A stretch of 64,000 bases of DNA from assembly GCF_041468085.1 (NCBI RefSeq), contig NZ_CP121015.1, forward strand, positions 124,001 through 188,000, given 5' to 3'. Position 1 is the stretch's first letter, and each line of letters starts with the position of its first letter. Position numbers and translations under genes: made by a program. Below the pieces are notes generated by a model. That model was not told the DNA's origin and made no database searches. It was given only the letters and a program-made list of their open reading frames with translations. This DNA comes from Tistrella mobilis (GTDB lineage: Bacteria; Pseudomonadota; Alphaproteobacteria; Tistrellales; Tistrellaceae). Shown here one piece after another: positions 45,024 through 61,505 of this stretch.

Positions 45024-46703
45024 GTGGCGGAATGCGGGGAAACACCATCCGTCATTCTGGGTCTGAAGGCCGCCGGCCTGCGAGGCGTGCTTGCATCGCT
45101 TGTGCCGGTGGCAGTGCTGGCGGTGTTGTCCGCGCTGCTCATGGTGCTGGTGCCCTGGCTCTTCGCCCGCCTGATCGATGATCTGGCGGCCGGGGGTGCA
45201 GAGGATCTGCTGGCGGTGGTGGCGGCATATGCGTTGCTGCTGGGGTGTGGGTTGGTCGTCAGGCATGTGGTGGAATATCTGGGCGATATGTGTGCGGAGC
45301 GCATATCCTCGACCATCAGCATCGCCTTCTTCGAGCGGCTGATGCGCAAGACCCCGGCCTTCTTCGTCGACAACAACATCGTCGCGATCCGGCAGGCCCA
45401 GGCGCGGGGTGCCATGGCGATGAACGTCGTCGTCCAGCTGGGGTCGGGGGTGCTTCTGACCGGCCTGGTGCAGTTCCTGGCCACGATCGTGATGCTCGGT
45501 GCTGCCGTGACCCCGGCGATTGCCGCCATCGTGGCGGCCTATGGTCTGGCCTTCACCGGTGTTACCTGGCTGGCCGCGTCACGCACGCGCGGGCATCTGG
45601 ATGCCGCGATCGACGCCGATCAGCAGGTGGCGCAGGTCTTCGGCAATGTGATCGGCGCCGTAGAGGCGGTGCGGCAGGCGGGCGGCACCGCCTGGGCACG
45701 TGATCATCACCACGCGCAGATGCATGGGCTGCTGGATCGCTGGGCTGCCTATTGCCGGCGGCGGATCGCCTATGCCGCGATATATGGCCTGGCGCTGGCC
45801 ATGCAGATCGCCGTCACCTTCGGCCTGCTGCTGCCGGCCTGGCGGGCGGGCCAGCTCACCATCGGCGAGGTGGTGCTGTTCAACACCCTGCTTCTGCAGC
45901 TCAATCAGCCTTTCGAGGCCGCCGGCCATGCGATCGATGATGTGGTTCGTTCGCTGGCGCGGCTGCGGCCGCTGTTGCGCATGTGGCAGGCGCCGGAAAT
46001 GCCGATGCGGCCCCAGGCGCAACCGCTGGTGATCCGCGACGGGACCGTCACTTTCGATCATCCCGGCTATGTTCATGCCGACGGGCGGGGGCTGTCCGGG
46101 CTTCGGGCGACGGCGCGGCGCGGCCATGTCACCTGGATCATGGGAGAGACCGGCGCAGGCAAGACCGCGCTCATCCGATTGTTGACCCGGGCGCTGGAAC
46201 CCGGCACCGGGCGCATCCTGATCGACGGCACGGATCTGGCCGGGATCGACCCGGAGGCCTGGTACGCGATCGTGGGCATCGTCCCGCAGGAGCCGGTCCT
46301 GATCGCGGACAGCGTGGCGATGAATGTGACCTTCGGCCGGCCCCGGGACGAGGGGCGGCTGAATGCGGCGCTGGCCGCAGCCCGGATGCTTGAGCGCGTC
46401 CAGGCCATGCCGGCCGGGCTTGAAACGGTGGTGGGGGAGCGGGGTTTCCGCCTGTCGGGTGGCGAGCGTCAGCGGATTGCCATCGCCCGCGCGCTTTATG
46501 GCGACCCCGCCGTGCTGCTGCTCGACGAGGCGGGCTCCGCGCTCGATCCGGCGACGGAGGAGAATATTCTCGACGGTATCCGCCAGATTGTCGATCGGGT
46601 GACGGTGATTGCGGTCACCCACCGGCCGGGGGTGATCCGGCCGGGCGATACCGTGATCACGCTGGCCAGTGGCGGATCACCGGTGGTGCGGGAGGGCATA
46701 TGA
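45024..46703 (+). CDS. ABC exporter half-transporter
   Basis: 559 aa with six membrane helices (about 25-310) and an ATPase (about 335-559). GTG 45024 has GGGAGG seven bases before. Motifs: GETGAGKTA (Walker A with Ala in place of the second Ser/Thr), PQEPVLIADSVAMN, LSGGERQR, LLLDEAGSALD (Gly instead of the usual Thr) and VTHRPG at the H-loop. The membrane half resembles SyrD/PvdE-type or lipid exporters only in general plan. Its stop overlaps the formyltransferase start (ATGA), so export and N-formylation are probably linked. Confidence 0.9.
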   Translation: MAECGETPSVILGLKAAGLRGVLASLVPVAVLAVLSALLMVLVPWLFARLIDDLAAGGAEDLLAVVAAYALLLGCGLVVRHVVEYLGDMCAERISSTISIAFFERLMRKTPAFFVDNNIVAIRQAQARGAMAMNVVVQLGSGVLLTGLVQFLATIVMLGAAVTPAIAAIVAAYGLAFTGVTWLAASRTRGHLDAAIDADQQVAQVFGNVIGAVEAVRQAGGTAWARDHHHAQMHGLLDRWAAYCRRRIAYAAIYGLALAMQIAVTFGLLLPAWRAGQLTIGEVVLFNTLLLQLNQPFEAAGHAIDDVVRSLARLRPLLRMWQAPEMPMRPQAQPLVIRDGTVTFDHPGYVHADGRGLSGLRATARRGHVTWIMGETGAGKTALIRLLTRALEPGTGRILIDGTDLAGIDPEAWYAIVGIVPQEPVLIADSVAMNVTFGRPRDEGRLNAALAAARMLERVQAMPAGLETVVGERGFRLSGGERQRIAIARALYGDPAVLLLDEAGSALDPATEENILDGIRQIVDRVTVIAVTHRPGVIRPGDTVITLASGGSPVVREGI

Positions 46704-47506
46704 TGAGACTTGCGCTGTTGGGCGGTGTCGATGGCAGCTGGGCCGCCATGCTGCGTGCCGGCGGCCATGTTCTGACCTCGATATGGACGGCCGGCGGTGG
46801 TCAGGTCGGCGAGATCACCGCAGCGCTTGCCGCGGAACATCAGTGCCCGGTCTTCTTCCATCGGTTCCGCCGTGATGATCTGGCGATGCTGCGGCAGACC
46901 GGCACCGGGCTGGTGGTGGTGGTCGGCTATCCATGGCTGGTACCGGTCGACCCCGCCCTGCCTGCGGTCAACATCCACCCAAGCCTGCTGCCCGACGGGC
47001 GCGGACCCGCCCCTGTGCAATGGATCCTCGCGAGCCACCCGGCATCGGCGGGGATCACTGTTCACAAGCTGACGGCAGAGGCCGATGCCGGGGACATTCT
47101 GGCGCAGGAGCCGATGACCCTGACCGCCACCGATGATCTGCACACGGTGTTCGCGCGGACCTATTGGCGATCGGCGCAGATGATGGCGGCGATCCTGGCG
47201 GATTTTCCACGCGCCTGGGCGGCGGCGGTGCCGCAGCCCGCAACCGGCCGCTGGACGGCGGATCACCCCGGGGTCTTCACCATCGGGCCGACGACCCGGG
47301 TGGGCGATGCGCTGCATCACTGGCGCGCCTTCGGCCCGGGGCTCGTCGCCTGGAGGGAAGGGGAGGGGCGGACCCGCTGGCCGGTGGCGGTGCGCGGCTG
47401 GCTGGAGGCCCATGGCCTGGCCCCCGGCATGGTGGTCTCGGATGACGGACGGATCGCGACGCTGGCGGTCGTGGACGGCTTCCTGCTGATCGAGGCCCCG
47501 GGGTGA
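46700..47506 (+). CDS. Formyltransferase (Fmt/PurN-fold)
   Basis: 268-aa 10-formyl-tetrahydrofolate-dependent enzyme. The catalytic triad region is intact: VNIHPSLLPDGRGPAPVQWI (Asn, His) and TAEADAGDILAQE (Asp). The N-terminal 30 residues (LALLGGVDGSWAAML) match the usual first strand loosely. The C-terminal 80 residues resemble the Fmt C-terminal OB fold. It is not the housekeeping Fmt by context: it is coupled to an ABC exporter by a 4-base overlap behind GGAGGG. Similar enzymes formylate sugar amines or N-hydroxyornithine in siderophores; substrate unknown here. Confidence 0.85.
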   Translation: MMRLALLGGVDGSWAAMLRAGGHVLTSIWTAGGGQVGEITAALAAEHQCPVFFHRFRRDDLAMLRQTGTGLVVVVGYPWLVPVDPALPAVNIHPSLLPDGRGPAPVQWILASHPASAGITVHKLTAEADAGDILAQEPMTLTATDDLHTVFARTYWRSAQMMAAILADFPRAWAAAVPQPATGRWTADHPGVFTIGPTTRVGDALHHWRAFGPGLVAWREGEGRTRWPVAVRGWLEAHGLAPGMVVSDDGRIATLAVVDGFLLIEAPG

Positions 47507-49287: not shown

Positions 49288-49449
49288 GCCGGACGGCGAG
49301 GGGGTAACCTCGTGGAAACGCTATCTCATTGATAATCTTAAGAAATAAGTCTGGATGAAACGAGATGCATAACTGGTTATGCAAAAGGCCCGGACCCGAC
49401 GGAAATCGGGCGTTTCGGAGACCTCTTGACAAGGGGTTGGAAGGGGGGA

Positions 49450-49628
49450 GTTTGAAGCCATGACCATTTGCTCCGGTCATGGAAACAGACCTTTTCAAGG
49501 GAAGTCTCAACTTCAGCCATGCTATGTTTGAAGCCATGACCATTTGCTCCGGTCATGGAAACTTGGTGCCGGTCTGAACGACGTCGTACACGTTTGAAGC
49601 CATGACCATTTGCTCCGGTCATGGAAAC
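49450..49628 (+). CRISPR. Short CRISPR-like array, three identical 37-bp repeats
   Basis: Repeats at 49450-49486, 49526-49562 and 49592-49628 are identical. Each begins GTTTGAAG, contains an 8-bp stem (CCATGACC / GGTCATGG) around a nine-base loop and ends AAAC. Two unrelated spacers of 39 bases (49487-49525) and 29 bases (49563-49591) separate them. Repeat length, internal hairpin and GTTT...AAAC ends are typical of CRISPR; the unequal spacer lengths and absence of cas genes in the window are not. It could be an orphan array or another clustered hairpin repeat. Confidence 0.6.
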
Positions 49629-49633
49629 CCCGC

Positions 49634-49652
49634 AACCCGGTCTTCCCGGGTT
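49634..49652. other. Hairpin after the repeat array
   Basis: AACCCGG and CCGGGTT form a 7-bp stem around five bases, starting six bases after the last array repeat. No T-run follows, so terminator function is uncertain. Confidence 0.35.
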
Positions 49653-49737
49653 GTCGATCGATTCGGCCCTTTGACCATCCGCGCGCCGCGCCGTTGATGT
49701 CCGGCGCTGTCGCTGCCAGGACCTCCACACCCTCACC

Positions 49738-49768
49738 ACCGTCATCCCGGCGAAGGCCGGGATCCAGG
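49738..49768 (+). repeat. REP element, left copy
   Basis: 31 bases containing the hairpin ATCCCGGCGAAGGCCGGGAT, a repeat type common between genes in alphaproteobacteria. It is the exact reverse complement of 49887-49917. Confidence 0.8.
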
Positions 49769-49886
49769 TTTGTCCCCGCGTGAAGACTGCCGGACGAACT
49801 GTGCTCGCCCCGGCAGGGGGCCATTTTTCTGGCCGACACGGGCGCTGTCGCAAACCAGCCCTTCGTCTTTCCTGTGGAAGCCTACC

Positions 49887-49917
49887 TGGATCCCGGCCTT
49901 CGCCGGGATGACGGTAG
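49887..49917 (-). repeat. REP element, right copy (inverted)
   Basis: Exact inverted copy of 49738-49768, 118 bases away. Together the two could fold into one long cruciform. The 49769-49886 stretch between them holds no gene. No RAYT transposase is visible in the window. Confidence 0.8.
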
Positions 49918-50012
49918 AGGGGGCGTGCAGTGGGGTGGCGAGGTTTGGATCGGACAGGGGCGCCGGAGGGTGGGCCGGCCCCTGTCCCGCACGGGCCGAA
50001 GCTCCGGACTGG

Positions 50013-52921: not shown

Positions 52922-53041
52922 ATGATTCTGATCGCCGGCGTCGCGATCGATGCCTGGCCGATCGTCGTCGCCGACCGGTCGATCCGGCGCACCGTCCGGG
53001 TCGTCTACGGCTGGACCGGCGCCTGCGGGCACACCCACTGA
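52922..53041 (+). CDS. Possible 39-aa peptide of unknown function
   Basis: ATG 52922 with GAAGGACGG directly before it opens a 39-codon frame (MILIAGVAIDAWPIVVADRS, then VVYGWTGACGHTH). It lies between treY (divergent) and the first GNAT gene (convergent, overlap 37 bases). Hydrophobic start and a short C-terminal segment with Thr and Cys invite comparison with a peptide precursor for the nearby lanthipeptide synthetase, but there is no recognisable leader. Chance ORF is quite possible. Confidence 0.3.
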   Translation: MILIAGVAIDAWPIVVADRSIRRTVRVVYGWTGACGHTH

Positions 53042-53985
53042 TCAAAACTGTCCACCACCCGCAACCCCGCCCGTTCCAGCATGCGGCGTGACGCGGCATT
53101 GCCGGCATCGGCAAAGGCGGTGATCGCCTGGCGGCCATGGGTCCAGGCATGGGTGATCATCTCGCGGCAGATCAGGTCGGCGGCGCCGGAGCCCCAGTGG
53201 CGGCGCAGGCAGGCGCATTCGCTGCCGAGCAGGCCGTCATGGGCCGGGGTGAAGAGGATATAGCCGGCGAGGTCGGGGCCGCGACCGGTCATGATCAGGC
53301 CGCTTCCCGGGGCATCCAGATTGGCGCGGATCACCTGCCCTGTCATCCCGGCACCATTGCCGCGGGCGCCGAAGCAGCGGTTGTGGATATGGGCGACCTG
53401 GTCCAGCAGCCGGCCGGTCTCCGGCGCATCGGCATCGGCGGCCGTGATCAGACGGGTGGCGTAGCCGCGGGCCTCTGCCCGGCCGGCATGGGGGGCCTCG
53501 TCCGGTTGCAGGGGGGCCGGGGCGCGGTGATAGCGCAGGCGGCCCGTGCATTGCTCGAACCCCCGGGCCCGGAGCAGGCCCGCCGGCTCCGTCCGGCCGG
53601 GGAGCGGGTTGTAGCGGTAGTCGCAGACGTTGTCCGGCTCGCCGGCTTCTCGTGTCAGGGCCTGGTCGAGACAGGCGGCCAGCGCCCCGGCATCATCGGC
53701 CGGGCACCAGATCAGCAGGTTGACGATGCCGCGGCCGTCGTGCCGGCGGGTGCGGGCGCTGGTCAGCACCGCGCGCAACCGGCCGTCCAGATGCCAGAAT
53801 TCGTCGCGGACCGGGTCTTCCGTCCGGGTGTTGCGGATGACCAGACGTTCGGCATAGCCGGGTTCGGCGGCCATCCGGCGCGTGTCGGGGTCGGCATGGG
53901 CGGCGAGGAAGGCTGCAAGCGTGGCGGCAGTCTCGGCCGTAAGCGGGGTGAAGGTTCCATGAGGGTAAACCGCCATCGGCGTCAT
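53005..53985 (-). CDS. Tandem-GNAT acyltransferase 1 of lanthipeptide locus
   Basis: 326-aa acyl-CoA-dependent N-acyltransferase from ATG 53985 (MTPMAVYPHG; ATG 53976 is possible). Length suggests two GNAT folds; the C-terminal one has the GSGLIMTGRGPDLAGYILF strand and the acyl-CoA loop RRHWGSGAADLICREM, with FADAGNAASRRMLERAGLR at the end. It is divergent from the LanM gene (85-base gap) and clearly paralogous to the protein at 57243 (shared IHNR..GARG, PGSGLI, AG.ILF, NAASRR). Probable role: acylating the modified peptide or giving self-resistance. The precursor has no Lys, so a side-chain Lys target is unlikely. Confidence 0.82.
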   Translation of the reverse strand: MTPMAVYPHGTFTPLTAETAATLAAFLAAHADPDTRRMAAEPGYAERLVIRNTRTEDPVRDEFWHLDGRLRAVLTSARTRRHDGRGIVNLLIWCPADDAGALAACLDQALTREAGEPDNVCDYRYNPLPGRTEPAGLLRARGFEQCTGRLRYHRAPAPLQPDEAPHAGRAEARGYATRLITAADADAPETGRLLDQVAHIHNRCFGARGNGAGMTGQVIRANLDAPGSGLIMTGRGPDLAGYILFTPAHDGLLGSECACLRRHWGSGAADLICREMITHAWTHGRQAITAFADAGNAASRRMLERAGLRVVDSFDQWVCPQAPVQP

Positions 53986-54070
53986 GATCCCGGGTCTGCT
54001 GCAGGGAAGGGCCGATCCTGAGTATATGATCGCCACGCCCTGCCAACCACGAGATGGATACCGGGATGTG

Positions 54071-57000
54071 ATGGCCGTTGACCTGGACTGGCCCGGCCTG
54101 GCCGCTGCCGCGGCCAGCCTCGACGAACGTCTGTCGGGCGGTTTCGACCCCGTCGATGCCCCGGACGCGGCGGCGCGGGCCGCGGCGGCGCTGGATCTCT
54201 GGGTCGATGCGGCGACATCGGGCGATCGGGCGCGGTTCGCCCGCATGCTGACCCGTCGGGGCCTGACGCTTGAGGCCGTGCTGCCGCTGCTGGGACCGGT
54301 ACGGCTGAAGGCGGGGCGCGCCTTGCCCGGCTGGATCGATCAGGCCCGGCCGCTGCTGGCGGCGCTGATCGGCGGGCAGGATGGCGGCCGGCCCTGCCCG
54401 GTTGCGGCCTGGGACGAGATCCCCTTTGCCGGGCTGCTCTGGCCGGCGGTGGTGGAGGCGCGCCGGGCCCGGGGCGAACCGCCTGTGGGGCTGATCACCG
54501 ATGTGGCGCTGGCGGCGCTGGACATCGCGCTGCTGCGTGGCCTGGCCGAGGTGACCGGCCAGAGCCTGTTCGAAAGTTTCGATTTCTACCGCCGCGCCGG
54601 CGGCGGGCCGGCGGAGCTGATGCCCGCGGGGGCGCCGGAGGGCTGCGGGCTGGTCGCAGGCTTTGCCGCCGCCCTGCGCGAAGGGCCGCTGCTGAACCTG
54701 ATCGCCGCCCGGCCGGTGATGCTGCGCCTGGCGGCGACGATCCGCGGCCAGTGGATTGCCGCGACCGGCGATTTTCTGGCACGGCTGGCGGCGGATCGGG
54801 ACCGGCTCGACGGTCTGATCGGCCGCGGGGCCGGGCGGGTGGCCGCGATCGCAACCGAGCTGTCGGACCCGCATGAGGGCGGGCGGCGGGTGATGGCGCT
54901 GACCTTCGAAAACGGCGCCCGCCTGGTGTGGAAGCCGCGATCGCTGGCCGCCGAGGCCGCCTGGCACGATCTGGTGCAGTGGTGTGCGGCCAGGGGCGCG
55001 CCGGTCAGGCTGGGGGCCGCCCCGGTGCTGGAATGCGGCAGCCATGGCTGGATGGGCTTCGTGCCCCAGGCGCCTGCCTTGACCGCGGCAGAGGCGCCGG
55101 AATTCTGGCGCCGGGCCGGCGGGCTGCTGGCGGTGATGCATCTGCTGCGCGGCAGCGACCTGCATCACGAGAACATCCACATTCACGACGGCGTGCCGGT
55201 GCCGGTGGATCTTGAGGCGATGCTGCAGCCGGATCTTGCCCTGGTGCCCGAGGCGGTGCCCGTGCTGCGCGCCGACCAGGCGGCCCGGCGCCGGCTGGAG
55301 GGCTCGGTGCTGGCGGTGGGGCTGCTCCCGCGGGAACAGCGGCTGGCCGGGCGGCCGGTGCGGATGGGCGCGCTGGCCCCGGTGGGCGAAGAGACCGTGC
55401 GGCTGACCGGGTGGACGGCGGTCAATCGCGACGCCATGGCCTTCGAGGCGCAGACCGTGACCCGGCCGACCGCCGGCATCCCGATCACCATCGACGGCCG
55501 GCCGGCGATGCCGGGGGCGGGGGCGGCGGATCTGGTCGCGGGCTATCGCGCGATGATCGACTTTCTGGCCGGAAACCGCCGCGAACTGCTGGCGGCAGAG
55601 GGGCCGCTTGCCGGTTTCGCCGCCGCCCGCATCCGCCATGTGCTGCGCCCGACCAGCTATTACGAGCAGCTGCGCCAGGCGGCGCGCCACCCCGGCGCCC
55701 AGACCGACGGCATCGCCTGGAGCCGCCATTTCGAACGCCCGATCCGGACGGCGCGCTGGGATCTGGGCGATGGACCGGGCGAGGATGCCGGCTGGGACCT
55801 GCCTGGCGCTGAACGCACCGCGCTGGCCCGCGACGACGTGCCGGTCTTCACCGGCATCGGCGCTACCGATGGTTGTTTCGCCGACGGGGCGGAGGTGGCG
55901 AAGGGCCTGCTGGAGCCGGCAGTGCTGCCGCGCCTGGCGGCCCGGCTGGACCGGATCTGCGCCGAGCTGGACATGCATACGGGCCTGATCCGCCAGGCGA
56001 TGACCGGCGCCGATCTGCCGGTGTTGCCGCCGTCGCGGCCCTGGACGGAGGCTGCGGGCGGTTTCGATCCGGCGGCGGCCCGGCGGATGGTGGATGCCAT
56101 CGCGGGCCGGCTGGCGGAAGATGCGATCCGCGCCGGCGGGGCGGCGGCCTGGATCGGCACGCGGATCTCGACGGATGGCGAAGCGCTGAAGCCGGCAGTT
56201 CTGGGCGATGATCTTTACGACGGCCGCATCGGCATCGCCCTGTTCCTGGCCGGTGCGGCGGCGACGGATGCGGCGGGCCGCAAGGTGCTGGGCGGGCTGG
56301 CGCTGGAGGCCCTGGCGCCGCTGCGCCACCGGCTGGCGGCGGGGCTGCCCGAAGCGGCGGACGGCCTGCATGGCATCGGCGGGTTCGACGGATGGGGCGG
56401 GGTGGTCTATGGGCTGACCCGCATCGCCGGCCTGCTGGACCGGCCGGATCTGCTGGAGGATGCCCGCCATGCGGCGGCCCGGATCACGCCCCAGGCCATC
56501 GCCGCCGACCGGGTGTTCGACATGATCGGCGGCGCGGCGGGGGCGATCTGCGGGCTGCTCGCGCTTTATCGCGCAACCGGGGATGACGCGGTTCTGGCGC
56601 GCGCGGTCGCCTGCGGCCGTCACATTCCGGCCGACGGGCGCGCCGGCTGGGCGGGGGTGGCGGGCCGTCCGCTCGCCGGCCAGTCGCATGGCGCGGCCGG
56701 CATCGTCCAGGCCCTGGCGGCGCTGGCCGCGGCGACGGGGGAGGCGGGCTTTGCCGAAACCGCGCGCCAGGGCCTCGCCTTCGAGACCGGCTTGTTCGAT
56801 GCCGGGCGCGGCAACTGGCCCGACCTGCGCCGCCCGGACCGGATCACCTTTCCGGTGCAATGGTGCCACGGCGCCACCGGCATCGGCTTCGGGCGGCTCG
56901 CGGCCCTGGCCGTTCTGGACGATGGCGTGCTGGACGACGGCGCGGCGGCGCGGGATCTGGACCATGCCATCGCCTGCAGCTGCAACACCGCCGACGGCGG

Positions 57001-57268
57001 GCGCGACAATCTGTGCTGCGGCCAGGCCGGGCGGCTGTCGCTGCTGATCCAGGCGGCGCGGGCGCGGGGGGATGCGGCGCTGATGCAGCTGGCCGACCGG
57101 CGGCTGGCGGCCTGGCTGGCGCGCGCCGGCACGCCCGACGGCTTTGCGCTGGCCGGCGCCACGCCGCATCTCCGCCCCGGGCTGATGCAGGGGCTGGCGG
57201 GGGTGGGGCAGGTGCTGCTGGAACGGCTCTGCCCCCGGCTGATCACGCCGGTGCTGGCCCTTGAATGA
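54071..57268 (+). CDS. lanM: Class II lanthipeptide synthetase (LanM), CCG zinc site
   Basis: 1065-aa bifunctional enzyme that phosphorylates and dehydrates Ser/Thr of a precursor and cyclises Cys onto the product. ATG 54071 has GGGA upstream; the frame is open further up without a family sequence. N-terminal LanM dehydratase (about 100-650): LVWKPRSLAAEA (ATP-binding Lys about 286), GSDLHHENIHIHDG (about 360-373) and PVDLEAML. C-terminal LanC-like cyclase (about 690-1060): DGLHGIGGFDGWGGVVYGL, SHGAAGIVQAL, WCHGATGIG (Cys 932) and LCCGQAGRL (Cys 982, 983). The Cys-Cys-Gly ligand set, instead of Cys-His-Gly, is that of ProcM-like synthetases noted for slow, substrate-tolerant cyclisation. No LanT/C39 exporter is near. 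A precursor gene lies at 58428. Confidence 0.93.
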   Translation: MAVDLDWPGLAAAAASLDERLSGGFDPVDAPDAAARAAAALDLWVDAATSGDRARFARMLTRRGLTLEAVLPLLGPVRLKAGRALPGWIDQARPLLAALIGGQDGGRPCPVAAWDEIPFAGLLWPAVVEARRARGEPPVGLITDVALAALDIALLRGLAEVTGQSLFESFDFYRRAGGGPAELMPAGAPEGCGLVAGFAAALREGPLLNLIAARPVMLRLAATIRGQWIAATGDFLARLAADRDRLDGLIGRGAGRVAAIATELSDPHEGGRRVMALTFENGARLVWKPRSLAAEAAWHDLVQWCAARGAPVRLGAAPVLECGSHGWMGFVPQAPALTAAEAPEFWRRAGGLLAVMHLLRGSDLHHENIHIHDGVPVPVDLEAMLQPDLALVPEAVPVLRADQAARRRLEGSVLAVGLLPREQRLAGRPVRMGALAPVGEETVRLTGWTAVNRDAMAFEAQTVTRPTAGIPITIDGRPAMPGAGAADLVAGYRAMIDFLAGNRRELLAAEGPLAGFAAARIRHVLRPTSYYEQLRQAARHPGAQTDGIAWSRHFERPIRTARWDLGDGPGEDAGWDLPGAERTALARDDVPVFTGIGATDGCFADGAEVAKGLLEPAVLPRLAARLDRICAELDMHTGLIRQAMTGADLPVLPPSRPWTEAAGGFDPAAARRMVDAIAGRLAEDAIRAGGAAAWIGTRISTDGEALKPAVLGDDLYDGRIGIALFLAGAAATDAAGRKVLGGLALEALAPLRHRLAAGLPEAADGLHGIGGFDGWGGVVYGLTRIAGLLDRPDLLEDARHAAARITPQAIAADRVFDMIGGAAGAICGLLALYRATGDDAVLARAVACGRHIPADGRAGWAGVAGRPLAGQSHGAAGIVQALAALAAATGEAGFAETARQGLAFETGLFDAGRGNWPDLRRPDRITFPVQWCHGATGIGFGRLAALAVLDDGVLDDGAAARDLDHAIACSCNTADGGRDNLCCGQAGRLSLLIQAARARGDAALMQLADRRLAAWLARAGTPDGFALAGATPHLRPGLMQGLAGVGQVLLERLCPRLITPVLALE

Positions 57269-58235
57269 CGGCGGGTCCGGGGAACATCTCCACCCCGGCC
57301 CCGATCCGGCATTCCCAGAGATGATGTTCGGCGATCAGCGCCATGCCGGCGCGGTCCATCGCGCGGCGTGATGCGGCGTTGGTGACGTCGGCACAGGCCA
57401 CGACGTCCAGCCCGCGCGGCGCCGAGACCCGCTCGGCCATCAGCCGGCACATGGCGTCGACGGCGCCGCTTCGCCAATGGGCGCGGGCCAGACAGGCCTC
57501 GATCACCAGAATGCTGCCCTCCATCTGCTGGAACAGAATATGGCCGGCGATCTCGCCGCCCCGCCGGGCGACGATCAGCCCGCTTCCCGGCTGTGACAGA
57601 CGGCCCTGCACCACATCCGCCGTCCAGTCGGCCACCGACCCGCGCGCGCCGAGGGTACGGTTGTGGATGGCGGCCACCCGGTCCGCCACCGCCTGATCCG
57701 GCGGCTGTGCCGGATCGTCGAACAGCGCAAGTCCATAGCCGGCGTCGAGCGCCTGATCCGCCAGAACGAATTCCCCCGGCCGGGGCGGGCCGGCCGGGCG
57801 GCGGTACTCGCAAAGCCCCGGGATGCGGGTGAAGCCCCGGGCGGCGAGCCGCGCGGCCGGGGTCGGCTGGTGGGTCTGTTCCGTGATCCGGTAAAGCCGC
57901 GCCGCCGGGGCGATCCGGTCTTCCCGGTCCAGAAACACCTCCAGACAGGCGTCCGCCGCCGCAAGCCCGCCGCTGGCAGTCAGGATCTGCGCCGAGACGA
58001 TGATGCAGCCGTCATGGCGCGGCGCCCGCACCAGGGTCACCGCCGCCGCCGGGGCCTGGGGGTCGCCCTGCAGCCAGGCTTCGGCGCCCTGCCGGTCCAG
58101 AAACAGCGATCTGAGGTCGGTTTTCGCCAGATAATCCCGCACATCCGGGGCTGCCTTGGCCATGAGGAAAGCGGCGAAGGCCGGCAGCGTGGTGTCGTCG
58201 ACGCGGGTGAGGGGGAGGTCGTTCATGCGGGTCAT
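57243..58235 (-). CDS. Tandem-GNAT acyltransferase 2 of lanthipeptide locus
   Basis: 330-aa paralogue of the protein at 53005, from ATG 58235 (GGATGGCGG before it). C-terminal GNAT motifs: IHNRTLGARGSVADWTADVV, PGSGLIVARRGGEIAGHILF, acyl-CoA loop RAHWRSGAVDAMCRLM and VTNAASRRAMDRAGM. The N-terminal half is GNAT-like but more divergent. Its 3' end overlaps the convergent lanM by 26 bases and its 5' end faces the precursor gene, 193 bases away. Keeping two copies around the synthetase argues for a dedicated role in maturation or immunity; which is unknown. Confidence 0.82.
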   Translation of the reverse strand: MTRMNDLPLTRVDDTTLPAFAAFLMAKAAPDVRDYLAKTDLRSLFLDRQGAEAWLQGDPQAPAAAVTLVRAPRHDGCIIVSAQILTASGGLAAADACLEVFLDREDRIAPAARLYRITEQTHQPTPAARLAARGFTRIPGLCEYRRPAGPPRPGEFVLADQALDAGYGLALFDDPAQPPDQAVADRVAAIHNRTLGARGSVADWTADVVQGRLSQPGSGLIVARRGGEIAGHILFQQMEGSILVIEACLARAHWRSGAVDAMCRLMAERVSAPRGLDVVACADVTNAASRRAMDRAGMALIAEHHLWECRIGAGVEMFPGPAVIQGPAPA

Positions 58236-58427
58236 CCGCCATCCTGCCGTGGTGCCTCTCCACCCGATCATGCCGGGTTGAGCGGGCGGGGCGGGCGCGG
58301 CAGAGGCGGGGCGGTAAACCGCCGTCGCCCGCCCGCCATCCCGACGCTGCGGCGGGGCGGGTCGTGACCGATGATCGGGGCGCGTCCGGGCGTACAGCCC
58401 GGCGCCGGGTTCAGACTTTCAGGAGCG

Positions 58428-58718
58428 ATGATGATGCAGACCACGACCGACATGATGGCCGCCTGGCGCCAGACCGGCGGCGCGCTGCCCGCCGCCAGCC
58501 TCACCACCGGTGCCGACGAGCCCCTGGCGGCCGGCCCCTATTTCACCGCCACCAATGGCCGGGGTTGCATTGATGCCGATGCATCTGTTTCTGCCGCGGC
58601 AGTGACCTTCCGCGTGCCCGGCTGCGTGGCCGAGGATTGCATCGATGTCGATGCATCTGTTTCCGCCGCCGCGATCAGCTGGCATGGCGGCGTATGCCGC
58701 CCCGCGGGCGCTGCCTGA
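58428..58718 (+). CDS. Putative lanthipeptide precursor with duplicated core
   Basis: Up to 96 aa from one of three consecutive ATGs (58428, 58431, 58434) behind AGGAG. The first 45 residues are a Cys-free leader (MMQTTTDMMAAWRQTGGALP, then ADEPLAAG, a possible cleavage site). Residues 47-94 are two 24-residue units: CIDADASVSAAAVTF...C...AED and CIDVDASVSAAAISW...C...RPAG. Four Cys at 47, 66, 71 and 90 keep exact 24-residue spacing, with Ser/Thr for up to four thioether rings. There is no Lys. Position next to LanM and two GNATs supports precursor function. I know no named lanthipeptide with this core. Confidence 0.75.
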   Translation: MMMQTTTDMMAAWRQTGGALPAASLTTGADEPLAAGPYFTATNGRGCIDADASVSAAAVTFRVPGCVAEDCIDVDASVSAAAISWHGGVCRPAGAA

Positions 58719-58836: not shown

Positions 58837-59007
58837 ATGACCGAGGCGCGTAAGGCGAAGCTGAAGGCACTGCATGAGACCATCCAGGCCGCCATTGCCG
58901 AGGGCGACGGTGTCGGCGAAGAGGAGATGGATCGCCTGCTGGATGCCGAAGAGGCGCGGCTGCGCAAGGCGCCGGCACGAACGGCAGCAGGTCCGGCAGG
59001 CAGGTAG
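58837..59007 (+). CDS. ParD C-terminal-like fragment
   Basis: 56-aa ORF; ATG 58837 has CGGAGGG nine bases upstream. The start TEARKAKLKALHETIQAAIA EGD matches the second half of the ParD at 59099 (REARLKALRDTIQAAIAEGG), but the N-terminal DNA-binding domain is missing. It is either a decayed parD copy or a small stand-alone anti-toxin peptide. No toxin gene follows. Confidence 0.6.
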   Translation: MTEARKAKLKALHETIQAAIAEGDGVGEEEMDRLLDAEEARLRKAPARTAAGPAGR

Positions 59008-59098
59008 GCGCAAGGGGCTTGCGGTTCGATGCTATTAATTGTGCAAAAACTGACATCTTGTTAGGATTGAAGACCAATCCTCCGGAGGGTCAGCTCCC

Positions 59099-59350
59099 AT
59101 GAACGTGTCGATCGGTGCGCGCTGGGAAAGTTTCGTCGACAGCGTGGTTGAGGAAGGCCGCTATGCCTCGGCCAGTGAGGTGGTGCGCGAAGGCCTGCGC
59201 CTGGTGGAAGAGCGCGAGGCCAGGCTGAAGGCGCTACGCGACACCATTCAGGCGGCGATCGCCGAAGGCGGAGAAAACAGCGCTGCTGATGCCCGCCGGG
59301 CAATCGCTGCGGCGGTGGCGGAGATCGGATCCGGTCAGGGCTCACGCTGA
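59099..59350 (+). CDS. parD: ParD antitoxin
   Basis: 83-aa type II antitoxin: MNVSIGARWESFVDSVVEEG then YASASEVVREGLRLVEERE is the classic ParD ribbon-helix-helix N-terminus. CCGGAGGG lies upstream of ATG 59099. The toxin gene starts with the base after its stop codon. Expected to autorepress the pair and neutralise ParE. Confidence 0.92.
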   Translation: MNVSIGARWESFVDSVVEEGRYASASEVVREGLRLVEEREARLKALRDTIQAAIAEGGENSAADARRAIAAAVAEIGSGQGSR

Positions 59351-59665
59351 GTGCCGCGCCTGATTCTGTTGACCCCAGCCGTGCGGGAATTAGCGGCGAT
59401 CGCGGCTTATGTGATGCAGCGAAGCCAGGATGCGGCCATGGCCGAAGCCTTCGCCGCTGATCTGGTGATGAAGTGCGAGCATCTGGCCAGCCTGCCCGGC
59501 CTGATGGGCCGGCCCCGGCCCGAGCTGGCCGCCGGCCTGCGCAGCTTTGTCCATCGCGGCTATGTCATCTTCTTCCGCTACATCGATGACCGGTTCGAGG
59601 TGGTGACCGTGCTGGAAGGCCATCGCGACATCGACGGGCATTTTTTCGAAGAGCTGCCGCTCTGA
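59351..59665 (+). CDS. parE: ParE toxin (intact)
   Basis: 104-aa toxin from GTG 59351: LILLTPAVRELAAIAAYVMQ, FAADLVMKCEHLASLPGLMG and FVHRGYVIFFRYIDDRFEVV, ending EGHRDIDGHFFEELPL. Typical of ParE gyrase-targeting toxins and full length, unlike the two frameshifted copies at 29166 and 41603. Translationally coupled to parD. Confidence 0.92.
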   Translation: MPRLILLTPAVRELAAIAAYVMQRSQDAAMAEAFAADLVMKCEHLASLPGLMGRPRPELAAGLRSFVHRGYVIFFRYIDDRFEVVTVLEGHRDIDGHFFEELPL

Positions 59666-59688: not shown

Positions 59689-61505
59689 ATGGCGCTGGCG
59701 CTGACGGCCGGCGGCGCCGGTGCGGCGGTGCGGCCGGACATCTGGCCGGTGCCGGCGCGGGCGCTGGCGGCCGATCCGGTGCTGGAGGCGCGGATCGATG
59801 CCCTTCTGGCGCGGATGACGCTGGAGGAAAAGGTCGGCCAGACGATCATGGCCGATGTGGCGGAGGTAACCCCCGACGATCTGGCGCGCTGGCCGCTGGG
59901 GGCGCTGTTCGCCGGGGGCAATTCCTCCCCCGGCGGTACCGGGCTGGTGCCGCGCGAGCGCTGGCTGGCGGCGGCGGATGCATATCATGCGGCATCGCTG
60001 GCGGGCAGCGGCATTCCGGTGATCTGGGGCACCGATGCGGTCCATGGCCACAACCGGCTGATCGGGGCCACGGTCTTCCCGCACAACATCGCGCTGGGGG
60101 CGGCGGGCGACCCTGATCTGGTGCGCCGGGTGGGCCGGGCGATCGCGGCCGAGGTGGCGGCGACCGGCCTGGACTGGAGCTTCGGCCCGACGCTGGCGGT
60201 GGCCCGCGATGCCCGCTGGGGGCGTGCCTATGAAAGCTTCGGCAGCGACCCTGCTCTGGTCGCCCGGCTGGCGGGGGCAGCGGTCGAGGGGTTGCAGGGG
60301 CCGGTGGAGCCCCATGTCCCGGGCCGCGATTTCCTGAAAGATGGCCGGGTGATCGCCACCGCCAAACATTTCATCGGTGATGGCGGCACCACCAAAGGCA
60401 TTGATCGTGGTGATACGCAACTGCCAGAGGTTGTGTTGCGCGACATCCACGGCGCCGGCTATCCGCCGGCCCTGACCGCGGGGGTGCAGACGGTGATGGC
60501 CTCGTTCTCGTCATGGAACGGCGCCGCCCTGCATGGCCATCACGGGCTGCTGACCCGGGTGCTGAAACAGCGGATGGGTTTCGACGGCATTCTGCTGGGC
60601 GACTGGGACGGCCATGCCGCATTGCCCGGCTGCACCCCGGGCAGCTGCCCCGCGGCGATGAATGCCGGGCTCGACATGTTCATGGCCGCCACCGACTGGC
60701 GGGGGCTGTTTCAGGATACCGTCCGGCGGGTGCAGACGGGCGACATCCCCGCGGCCCGGCTGGAGGATGCGGTGCGGCGGATCCTGCGGGTCAAGATCCG
60801 CTACGGCCTGTTCGAGAAGCCGGCCCCGTCGCTGCGCGCCGCCGGCCTGCCCGAACCGGGTGCCGCGGCCCATCGCGCCCTGGCGCGCGAGGCGGTGCGC
60901 CGCAGCCTGGTGCTGCTGAAAAACGAGGACGGCCTGCTGCCGTTGCGCGCCGACCTTCGGGTGGGCGTGGTGGGGCCGGGCGCGGATGATATCGGCATGC
61001 AATCCGGTGGCTGGACGCTGGACTGGCAGGGCGGCACCGGCCGCAACCACCTGTTCCCGGGCGCGACCTCGATCTTCGGCGGCATCGCGCAGGCGGTTGC
61101 CCGGGCCGGCGGCAGCGCCGAACTGGCGCCCGACGGCCGCTTCGCCACCCGTCCGGATGTGGTGATCGCGGTCTTCGGCGAACCCCCTATGCCGAGATGG
61201 CCGGCGACCGCCCGGATCTGGATTTCGGCCGCCACGACCAGGGCCGGAGCCGGGCGATGCTGGACGCGCTGAAGGCGCAGGGCCTGCCGGTGGTCAGCGT
61301 CTTCCTGTCGGGCCGCCCCCTGTTCGTGGGGCCCGAACTGGCGGCATCCGATGCCTTCGTTCTGGCCTGGCTGCCGGGCAGCGAGGGCGCGGGCGTGGCG
61401 GATATGCTGTTTCGCGCAGCCGACGGAACCGTTGCCCACCCCTTCACCGGCCGTCTGCCGATGGCCTGGCCGGAGGCCGGCGACACGGTCCGGATTCCGG
61501 AATGA
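59689..61505 (+). pseudogene. GH3 beta-glucosidase-type enzyme, frameshifted
   Basis: The first frame (527 aa, ATG 59689) has the GH3 TIM-barrel: RMTLEEKVGQTIMADV, WGTDAVHGHNRLIGATVFPH, KHFIGDGGT and the nucleophile segment GILLGDWDGH, then the second domain (SLVLLKNEDGLLPL, VVGPGADD). At about 61180 the reading stops making sense; one frame back it resumes (EMAGDRPDLDFGRHDQ at 61193 on, then LPVVSVFLSGRPLFV, ending VRIPE 61505). One base is missing at GAACCCCCT, a C-run. The enzyme lacks the last 110 residues unless this is a sequencing error. The N-terminus is also short for a signal peptide. Confidence 0.85.

Follow-up and report, generated by a model that had tools for sequence, protein, structure and literature searches.

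A LanM, tandem-GNAT and repeat-unit precursor gene set in Tistrella mobilis and two further alphaproteobacterial genera

Here we describe a putative lanthipeptide gene set in a 64,000-nucleotide stretch of Tistrella mobilis DNA (contig NZ_CP121015.1, positions 124,001 to 188,000; hereafter the window), which is part of a 580 kb contig in a 6.3 Mb genome. The set comprises genes for a class II lanthipeptide synthetase (LanM), for two related tandem-GNAT proteins and for a short precursor peptide whose core holds repeat units. Sequence comparison establishes the gene set, its conservation and the unit structure, and 11 genomes from three alphaproteobacterial genera carry GNAT, LanM and precursor genes jointly. 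Our material is sequence comparison, profiles and predicted structures, and the chemistry is inferred from these; the reading that we favour, with somewhat better than even confidence, is that LanM forms a ring in each repeat unit and that the product is then acylated by a GNAT. The LanM, the two related GNATs on the opposite strand and the small open reading frame (ORF) had been pointed out in an earlier note, and all proved to be real genes. Their positions in the window are as follows.

53005 to 53985, minus strand: GnatA, tandem-GNAT protein of about 325 amino acids, divergent from lanM, with Acetyltransf_3 in its C-terminal half and the canonical P-loop RHWGSG; the true start is probably at 53976 rather than 53985
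54071 to 57268, plus strand: LanM, class II lanthipeptide synthetase of 1065 amino acids with a CCG zinc motif (TIGR03897, DUF4135 and LANC_like)
57243 to 58226, minus strand: GnatB, tandem-GNAT paralogue of 327 amino acids, divergent from the precursor gene, with the off-consensus P-loop AHWRSG
58421 to 58425, plus strand: AGGAG ribosome-binding site of the precursor, from sequence
58431 to 58718, plus strand: precursor peptide of 95 amino acids with two repeat units, ATG at 58431, with homologues in three genera
58431 to 58481, plus strand: conserved leader part, MMQTTTDMMAAWRQTGG; W, G and G are invariant in 28 aligned leaders, partly by choice, as leaders were selected through W-GG patterns
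58569 to 58625, plus strand: repeat unit 1, IDADASVSAAAVTFRVPGC, from the unit pattern and the sister species
58641 to 58697, plus strand: repeat unit 2, IDVDASVSAAAISWHGGVC, from the unit pattern and the sister species

The synthetase scores 602 bits against TIGR03897 (cut-off 304) and has the N-terminal dehydratase domain DUF4135 and the C-terminal LANC_like domain in Pfam, which assigns it to class II and agrees with its first description as a full LanM with both domains; the LanKC model gives 45 bits against a cut-off of 575, so the enzyme is not of class III. The reading frame is open from 53984, and the start is probably the ATG at 54071, because three of the four differences to the sister species between 53984 and 54070 are non-synonymous (ratio of non-synonymous to synonymous substitution, dN/dS, 1.1 over 29 codons; weak evidence). 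Across 12 aligned LanMs, K288, D363, H365, N368, D380, T528, C932, C982 and C983 are invariant, with catalytic or zinc roles that we take over from CylM. The CCG motif of ProcM-like LanMs (C982, C983, G984) is likewise invariant, where the aligned LicM2 chain has CHG. The window LanM is 92% identical in amino acids to that of the sister species (dN/dS 0.22), and the homologues are 42-54% identical between the three genera and full length in 10 of the 11 genomes. The top-ranked plasmid match of one Thalassospira homologue is a Nostoc LanM (31%), and a search for close relatives among genome contigs returned 16 pattern matches, none confirmed. A second LanM of 916 amino acids, also with a CCG motif, lies elsewhere in the same genome (C4, L003 9521-12271) beside an ORF that is presumably ArsR-like, and has a homologue in each of the three Tistrella genomes; the window precursor is the sole precursor of the family in its own genome.

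A four-row GNAT profile was run on 385 genomes of the class and then on 398 of the phylum. The class set gave Tistrella plus two weak partial matches (G014 and G124, E 4e-9 and 2e-9, over just 84 and 88 positions), and the phylum set a full-length match in one genome besides our own. The family of that genome, whose genus is Thalassospira, holds 12 GNATs in 7 of 29 genomes, and stretches from two further Thalassospira members are 100% matches to plasmids of T. lucentensis and T. xiamenensis. A 16-row profile run on 297 genomes of Thalassospira's order added the genus g464, with four GNATs in its two genomes together. Two of the three Tistrella genomes have the set: the sister species (G001) carries the whole locus, and the third genome (G002) gave no GNAT match. 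Among genome contigs the GNAT profile yielded 361 stretches, none confirmed, and a GnatB search of plasmids yielded no match.

The precursor is likewise conserved beyond the window, judged from its sequence, in the 11 genomes with a GNAT. With the window precursor as query, tblastn matched four Thalassospira loci at E 2e-4 to 7e-4 and the other three more weakly; a pattern search gave 26 precursors in the Tistrella and Thalassospira loci. A leader profile, built from 28 leaders of 10 of the 11 genomes and run on 34 genomes, found precursors in all 11 genomes that have a GNAT (1-10 in each) and in none of the 23 that do not. The held-out part of this test is G801, which has no row in the profile yet gave five precursors, together with 8 of the 10 precursors in G779. 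Three further genomes of g464's family, from other genera, gave no precursors. g464 itself has 15, none on the LanM-bearing contig, and 13 of them are without a GNAT match in the stretch fetched (some only 5-6 kb). The earlier note had staked its proposal on the precursor being conserved next to LanM homologues, and so it is, except that in g464 it is conserved in the genome and not beside lanM. The four genes it had listed (LanM, two tandem GNATs, a new-looking precursor) do occur jointly, although the set is wider than four, with 1 to 10 precursors per genome. Nine loci of the class that have a LanM only, three of them being the chromosomal LanM loci of the Tistrella genomes, were considered as members of the family and rejected: in none of the nine stretches fetched, one of which is cut by a contig end, was there a GNAT of this kind at E up to 1e-4.

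In total, 42 profile matches correspond to 41 precursors, one match being a second, partial one within a precursor already counted. The leader ends in W-x-x-x-G-G-A and is followed by a core of up to six units. The residue preceding Gly-Gly is Ser in 20, Thr in 14, Cys in four, Asn in two and His in one, and Ala follows Gly-Gly directly in 38 of 41. The units follow roughly the consensus [DE]-x-L-x-A-x3-[ST]-x(4-5)-C and were counted with the pattern [DEN]x(1-2)[ILVM]x[ASTMVG]x(2-3)[ST]x(2-8)C, which ends at 106 of the 136 core Cys; 500 shuffles gave a mean of 4.0 and a maximum of 11. Of 71 anchored cases, 56 have Ser or Thr at +6 from the aliphatic anchor. Predicted rings have five residues between Ser/Thr and Cys in 52 of the 106 units and four in 28, and 88 ring segments are distinct. 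In g464 the spacer is near constant, with Leu in 50, Ala in 47 and Gly, which the pattern does not force, in 49 of 51, and the ring varies (3.5-3.8 bits at the four residues preceding Cys), which is, at this level, the look of a multicore substrate. We take the unit structure to be real because of the excess over shuffles and this unforced Gly, with Leu and Ala. Several similar units thus follow one leader (up to six per precursor, 106 in 41). All cores taken together contain 340 Asp plus Glu, 112 Arg and 18 Lys in 2998 residues. The first reading had argued for acylation by a route that does not use Lys; this suits the window precursor and all 27 cores of 41 that are free of Lys, and does not extend to the other 14, which contain it. 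The window precursor and six relatives have no match over cut-off in Pfam or NCBIfam, Nif11 and nitrile-hydratase-like (NHLP) leaders included.

The window precursor has no Lys and four Cys (46, 65, 70 and 89). The ORF, its AGGAG and the four Cys stand as first described, whereas the regular spacing ascribed to the Cys does not, the intervals being 19, 5 and 19: the Cys fall into two repeat units, which Cys 65 and Cys 89 end. In the sister species gnatA, lanM and gnatB have identical order and strands, and where the window precursor has two units, its counterpart of 125 amino acids has four; most of the difference between the two is in whole units, and over the last two units the DNA is 95% identical. 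Cys 65 and Cys 89 are kept there, while Cys 46 is replaced by Asn and Cys 70 by Tyr. Treating the four Cys as equals was thereby ruled out. The sister species also carries, between lanM and gnatB, another short ORF that resembles a precursor (L009 17570-17767), with the leader W-R-Q-T-G-G-A and a single pattern unit; in the window lanM and gnatB adjoin without room for it. As a side observation, the codons GAT GCA TCT GTT, AT-rich in a GC-rich genome, are common to both window units (58578-58591 and 58650-58663) and recur with single changes in the four units of the sister species, which may reflect recent unit duplication or a constraint at the DNA level.

GnatA and GnatB are 36% identical over 312 positions. 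In both, the Pfam match to a GNAT domain is limited to the C-terminal half, but the AlphaFold models of both have one GNAT fold following another (mean pLDDT 71 for GnatB and 67 for GnatA; the models were built on two-row alignments and are hence modest), so that the two are related and tandem, as first described, as far as the models go. Against the sister species, GnatB is 90% identical in amino acids with dN/dS 0.33 (purifying selection) and GnatA 79% with dN/dS 0.48. VIA-align with the GnatB model, which tells about fold only, ranked Sba18/Sbb17 first (Z 14.1 over both domains, model residues 1-299, 235-237 aligned, root-mean-square deviation about 16 Å), with single-domain rows at 13.5 and 13.3 (DpA) and 12.8 (RimI-type), and also VipF at 12.6 and FemX at 12.0. 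A sequence search of the PDB gave no row with the four-row profile and five rows with the 16-row profile (E 0.015 to 0.93), a ferritin on top. The P-loop R/K-H-W-G-[ST]-G is present in 16 of the 20 GNATs in the 11 genomes. By position, 11 of these 20 are divergent from LanM, eight from a precursor and one is in tandem with another GNAT, and every genome has a GNAT divergent from LanM; the alternating strands, which had seemed unusual, are instead the rule of the family, 19 of the 20 having LanM or a precursor as divergent neighbour. Two precursor-divergent GNATs (G779 C2 and C21) have no LanM match in about 20 kb around them.

Taken together, we infer a pathway in which LanM would bind the short leader (M...W-x-x-x-G-G-A), dehydrate each unit's Ser or Thr and close it onto the Cys of the same unit. 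The product would carry one small (methyl)lanthionine ring per unit with acidic spacers between rings; for the window precursor two rings are predicted, most simply Thr59-Cys65 and Ser83-Cys89. The leader would then be cut after Gly-Gly, exposing Ala, and the divergent tandem GNATs would acylate the product from acyl-CoA, most likely at the alpha-amine of that Ala. As far as sequence allows, we are confident that LanM modifies these precursors. We hold it somewhat more likely than not that the GNAT acylates the peptide, the off-consensus P-loops being the reason for caution. The N-terminal Ala as its site is a tentative proposal, made because most cores are free of Lys, no arginase was noticed, almost all precursors have Ala directly after Gly-Gly, and N-terminal ends of this kind are substrates of RimI-type enzymes. 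A more far-reaching possibility, to which we give rather less credence, is that these are multicore lanthipeptides: one leader would serve several variable single-ring cores, up to ten precursors per genome would be modified by one LanM in trans, and units or the whole string would be released and N-terminally acylated by the tandem GNAT without LanT.

Several observations weigh against ring formation in each unit followed by GNAT acylation. The unit pattern was written after viewing all 41 precursors, so the positions that it fixes are no evidence; 30 of the 136 Cys lie outside it, and it finds no unit at all in one precursor (L068 17090). The 48 Thalassospira units comprise 37 different spacers and 39 different rings, so that spacer diversity almost equals ring diversity, and the one nearly fixed spacer position is Ala at anchor +3 (44 of 48). 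In the Thalassospira genome G705, the first ~110 residues of LanM are in another frame than the remainder, which may mean a non-functional set or an assembly error. On the GNAT side, GnatB has A-H-W-R-S-G in both Tistrella species, with two of three consensus P-loop residues lost, and both LanM-paired g464 GNATs have R-H-W-G-K-V, also off the consensus. Finally, a search of Tistrella and Thalassospira matched Peptidase_C39 in 6 of 10 genomes, namely all three Tistrella and three of seven Thalassospira. Because the other four set-bearing Thalassospira gave no match, and no peptidase was seen within the set, the leader would there be cleaved after Gly-Gly without the usual enzyme.

Other roles for the GNATs have to be weighed on the same evidence. 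They could serve self-protection, acetylating the finished peptide or its target inside the producer: this would account for precursors with their own divergent GNAT and for a GNAT beside precursors without LanM, no immunity protein was recognised in the locus, and 'self-resistance' is a role of natural-product GNATs given in the accessible part of PMC13060382. We regard it as unlikely, given that a GNAT is divergent from LanM in 11 of 11 genomes, as expected for a maturation enzyme, and that 13 of the 15 g464 precursors lack a nearby GNAT match within the stretches described above. A GNAT without catalytic activity that partners LanM or the leader, or one that acts in regulation, would fit the constant divergent position and the off-consensus P-loops of GnatB and the LanM-paired g464 proteins, but with the P-loop kept in 16 of 20 members we think this quite improbable; the purifying selection on GnatB is compatible with either a catalytic or a non-catalytic reading.

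As to the chemistry, selidamide-type fatty acylation of a Lys or ornithine (Orn) side chain has precedents in LanM and GNAT sets (nostolysamides, phaeornamide), one of which has another predicted tandem GNAT in NpuN, according to the sections seen of the sources cited below, and Lys is present in 14 of 41 cores. Against this stand the window precursor and 26 others with Lys-free cores, leaders that in the tested cases match neither the Nif11 nor the NHLP family, and sets in which no ORF was taken for a peptide arginase (from ORF lists, with Pfam run on part of the ORFs), which leaves this explanation a small probability. Smaller still is the chance that the tandem GNATs use aminoacyl-tRNA to add an amino acid to the peptide, in the manner of Sba18/Sbb17 and FemX. 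Sba18/Sbb17 do head the fold comparison over both domains, FemX is also among the rows and the off-consensus P-loop of GnatB would fit, but single-domain acetyltransferases are tied (DpA) or only slightly lower (RimI-type), the tandem rows superpose poorly (~16 Å) and the acyl-CoA P-loop is kept in most members. We file the family, from its sequences, as GNAT-bearing class II lanthipeptides and not as selidamides, with acylation of the LanM product as the preferred role of the GNATs.

Two short elements precede the genes of the window locus.

53964 to 53978, plus strand: GGTAAACCGCCATCG element, about 95 bases upstream of lanM
58313 to 58327, plus strand: GGTAAACCGCCGTCG element, about 105 bases upstream of the precursor

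Exact copies of GGTAAACCGYCRTCG number two each in our genome and in the sister species, both in the locus (before lanM and before the precursor) and nowhere else; with one mismatch there is one further place in each. Because the only exact copies precede these two genes, the pairing suggests joint control of lanM and precursor. GGTAAACCG was rejected as a family-wide element, being present in Tistrella only. In the upstream regions of Thalassospira, ATCANNGCG occurs in 8 of 30, always 38-47 bases before the start (random stretches: mean 0.7, maximum 3); it was chosen by eye from those same 30 stretches and is suggestive only as an upstream element.

The Thalassospira sets sit between a thioredoxin gene and ftsK (L070; ftsK in L066 too). 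Chemotaxis receptors with a Cache domain are the only other large ORFs in the seven sets that we accepted as genes, and lie within two of them (L067 9324-11009, L068 10083-11816) and just outside a third (L066 11519-13204). The other ORFs listed there resemble overlaps or readings of the opposite strand and were not searched; with this limit, the seven sets showed no recognisable transporter or peptidase. In g464, importer-type permease ORFs adjoin the LanM locus. The Tistrella locus is flanked by treY on one side and toxin-antitoxin genes on the other. About 6 kb left of gnatA, beyond treY and others, an ABC exporter-type ORF (45024-46703; ABC_membrane and ABC_tran, no C39) could be an exporter of the peptide, or unrelated; a formyl-transferase-domain ORF comes next (45024-47506 together). 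Window positions 40000-64000 match plasmid pTM1 of T. mobilis KA081020-065 over 40% at 92%; treY is there, with no lanM listed in 30 kb around it (the gene table is incomplete) and the 45024-47506 ORFs not listed between the neighbouring genes. An Rfam and tRNA scan of the window gave no matches. Elsewhere in the window, 49361-49970 is a dispersed repeat with many matches across 32 kb beside the locus in the sister species. The pair at 59102-59665, which we take to be ParD/ParE-like, is preceded by a short ORF (58838-59665 together) that resembles the end of the same antitoxin, and a presumably beta-glucosidase-like gene at 59689-61505 is split between two frames near 61.2 kb, both parts being in a single frame in the sister species.

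To date, the family is not named in the literature searched, most subscription papers being beyond that search, and this family of repeat-core ring-forming peptide systems is apparently uncatalogued. The accessible text of a Tistrella paper (PMC9964501) has no mention of lanti- or lanthi- terms, RiPP (ribosomally synthesised and post-translationally modified peptide) or antiSMASH. PMC13101482, in the portion available, gives 14 candidate antimicrobial peptides from 13 lanthipeptide clusters, six of them from Alphaproteobacteria, and describes Tistrella metagenome-assembled genomes as cluster-rich, so a family peptide may possibly be listed there already. With 41 repeat-unit precursors with variable rings in three genera, the family resembles a library of rings made by nature and readable by a simple rule. 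Should the multicore reading be true, it would be a natural single-ring peptide library system and the first multicore lanthipeptides, since precursors with several cores had not yet been reported according to the part seen of a 2026 paper (PMC13343206). With substrates free of Lys, the target of GNATs linked to RiPPs can be tested directly, and the Thalassospira hosts without a C39 match (4 of 7) raise the question of leader removal and product destination.

Among known systems, several share features with the set described here. Multicore RiPPs such as cyanobactins and dikaritins, whose precursors are multicore, likewise have several similar units after one leader. Prochlorosins likewise depend on a CCG LanM, ProcM, one enzyme with many precursors, some of them distant; in the Tistrella-type set, by contrast, no Nif11 leader match is found, each precursor has several unit rings and GNATs are present. 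Selidamides are reportedly the subject of a 2022 study by Hubrich et al. Nostolysamides and other selidamides (kamptornamide, phaeornamide) combine LanM and GNAT in one gene set, and in the npu system NpuM belongs to the ProcM clade, NpuN is a predicted tandem GNAT and the function of acylation is 'at present not clear' (PMC13060382, accessible part). In known selidamides Lys or Orn is acylated, the leaders are of Nif11 or NHLP type and an ABC transporter is mostly present (PMC13060382 and PMC9505594, in the parts available), while the Tistrella-type set has a short W-GG leader without match to those families in the window precursor and six relatives, repeat units, mostly Lys-free cores, no transporter seen inside, and divergent GNAT genes, often two or three. 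Lipolanthines (microvionin) and goadvionins are likewise GNAT-acylated, at the N-terminus (PMC13060382, accessible part), as is predicted here; they belong to class III, whereas the Tistrella-type set has a class II LanM.

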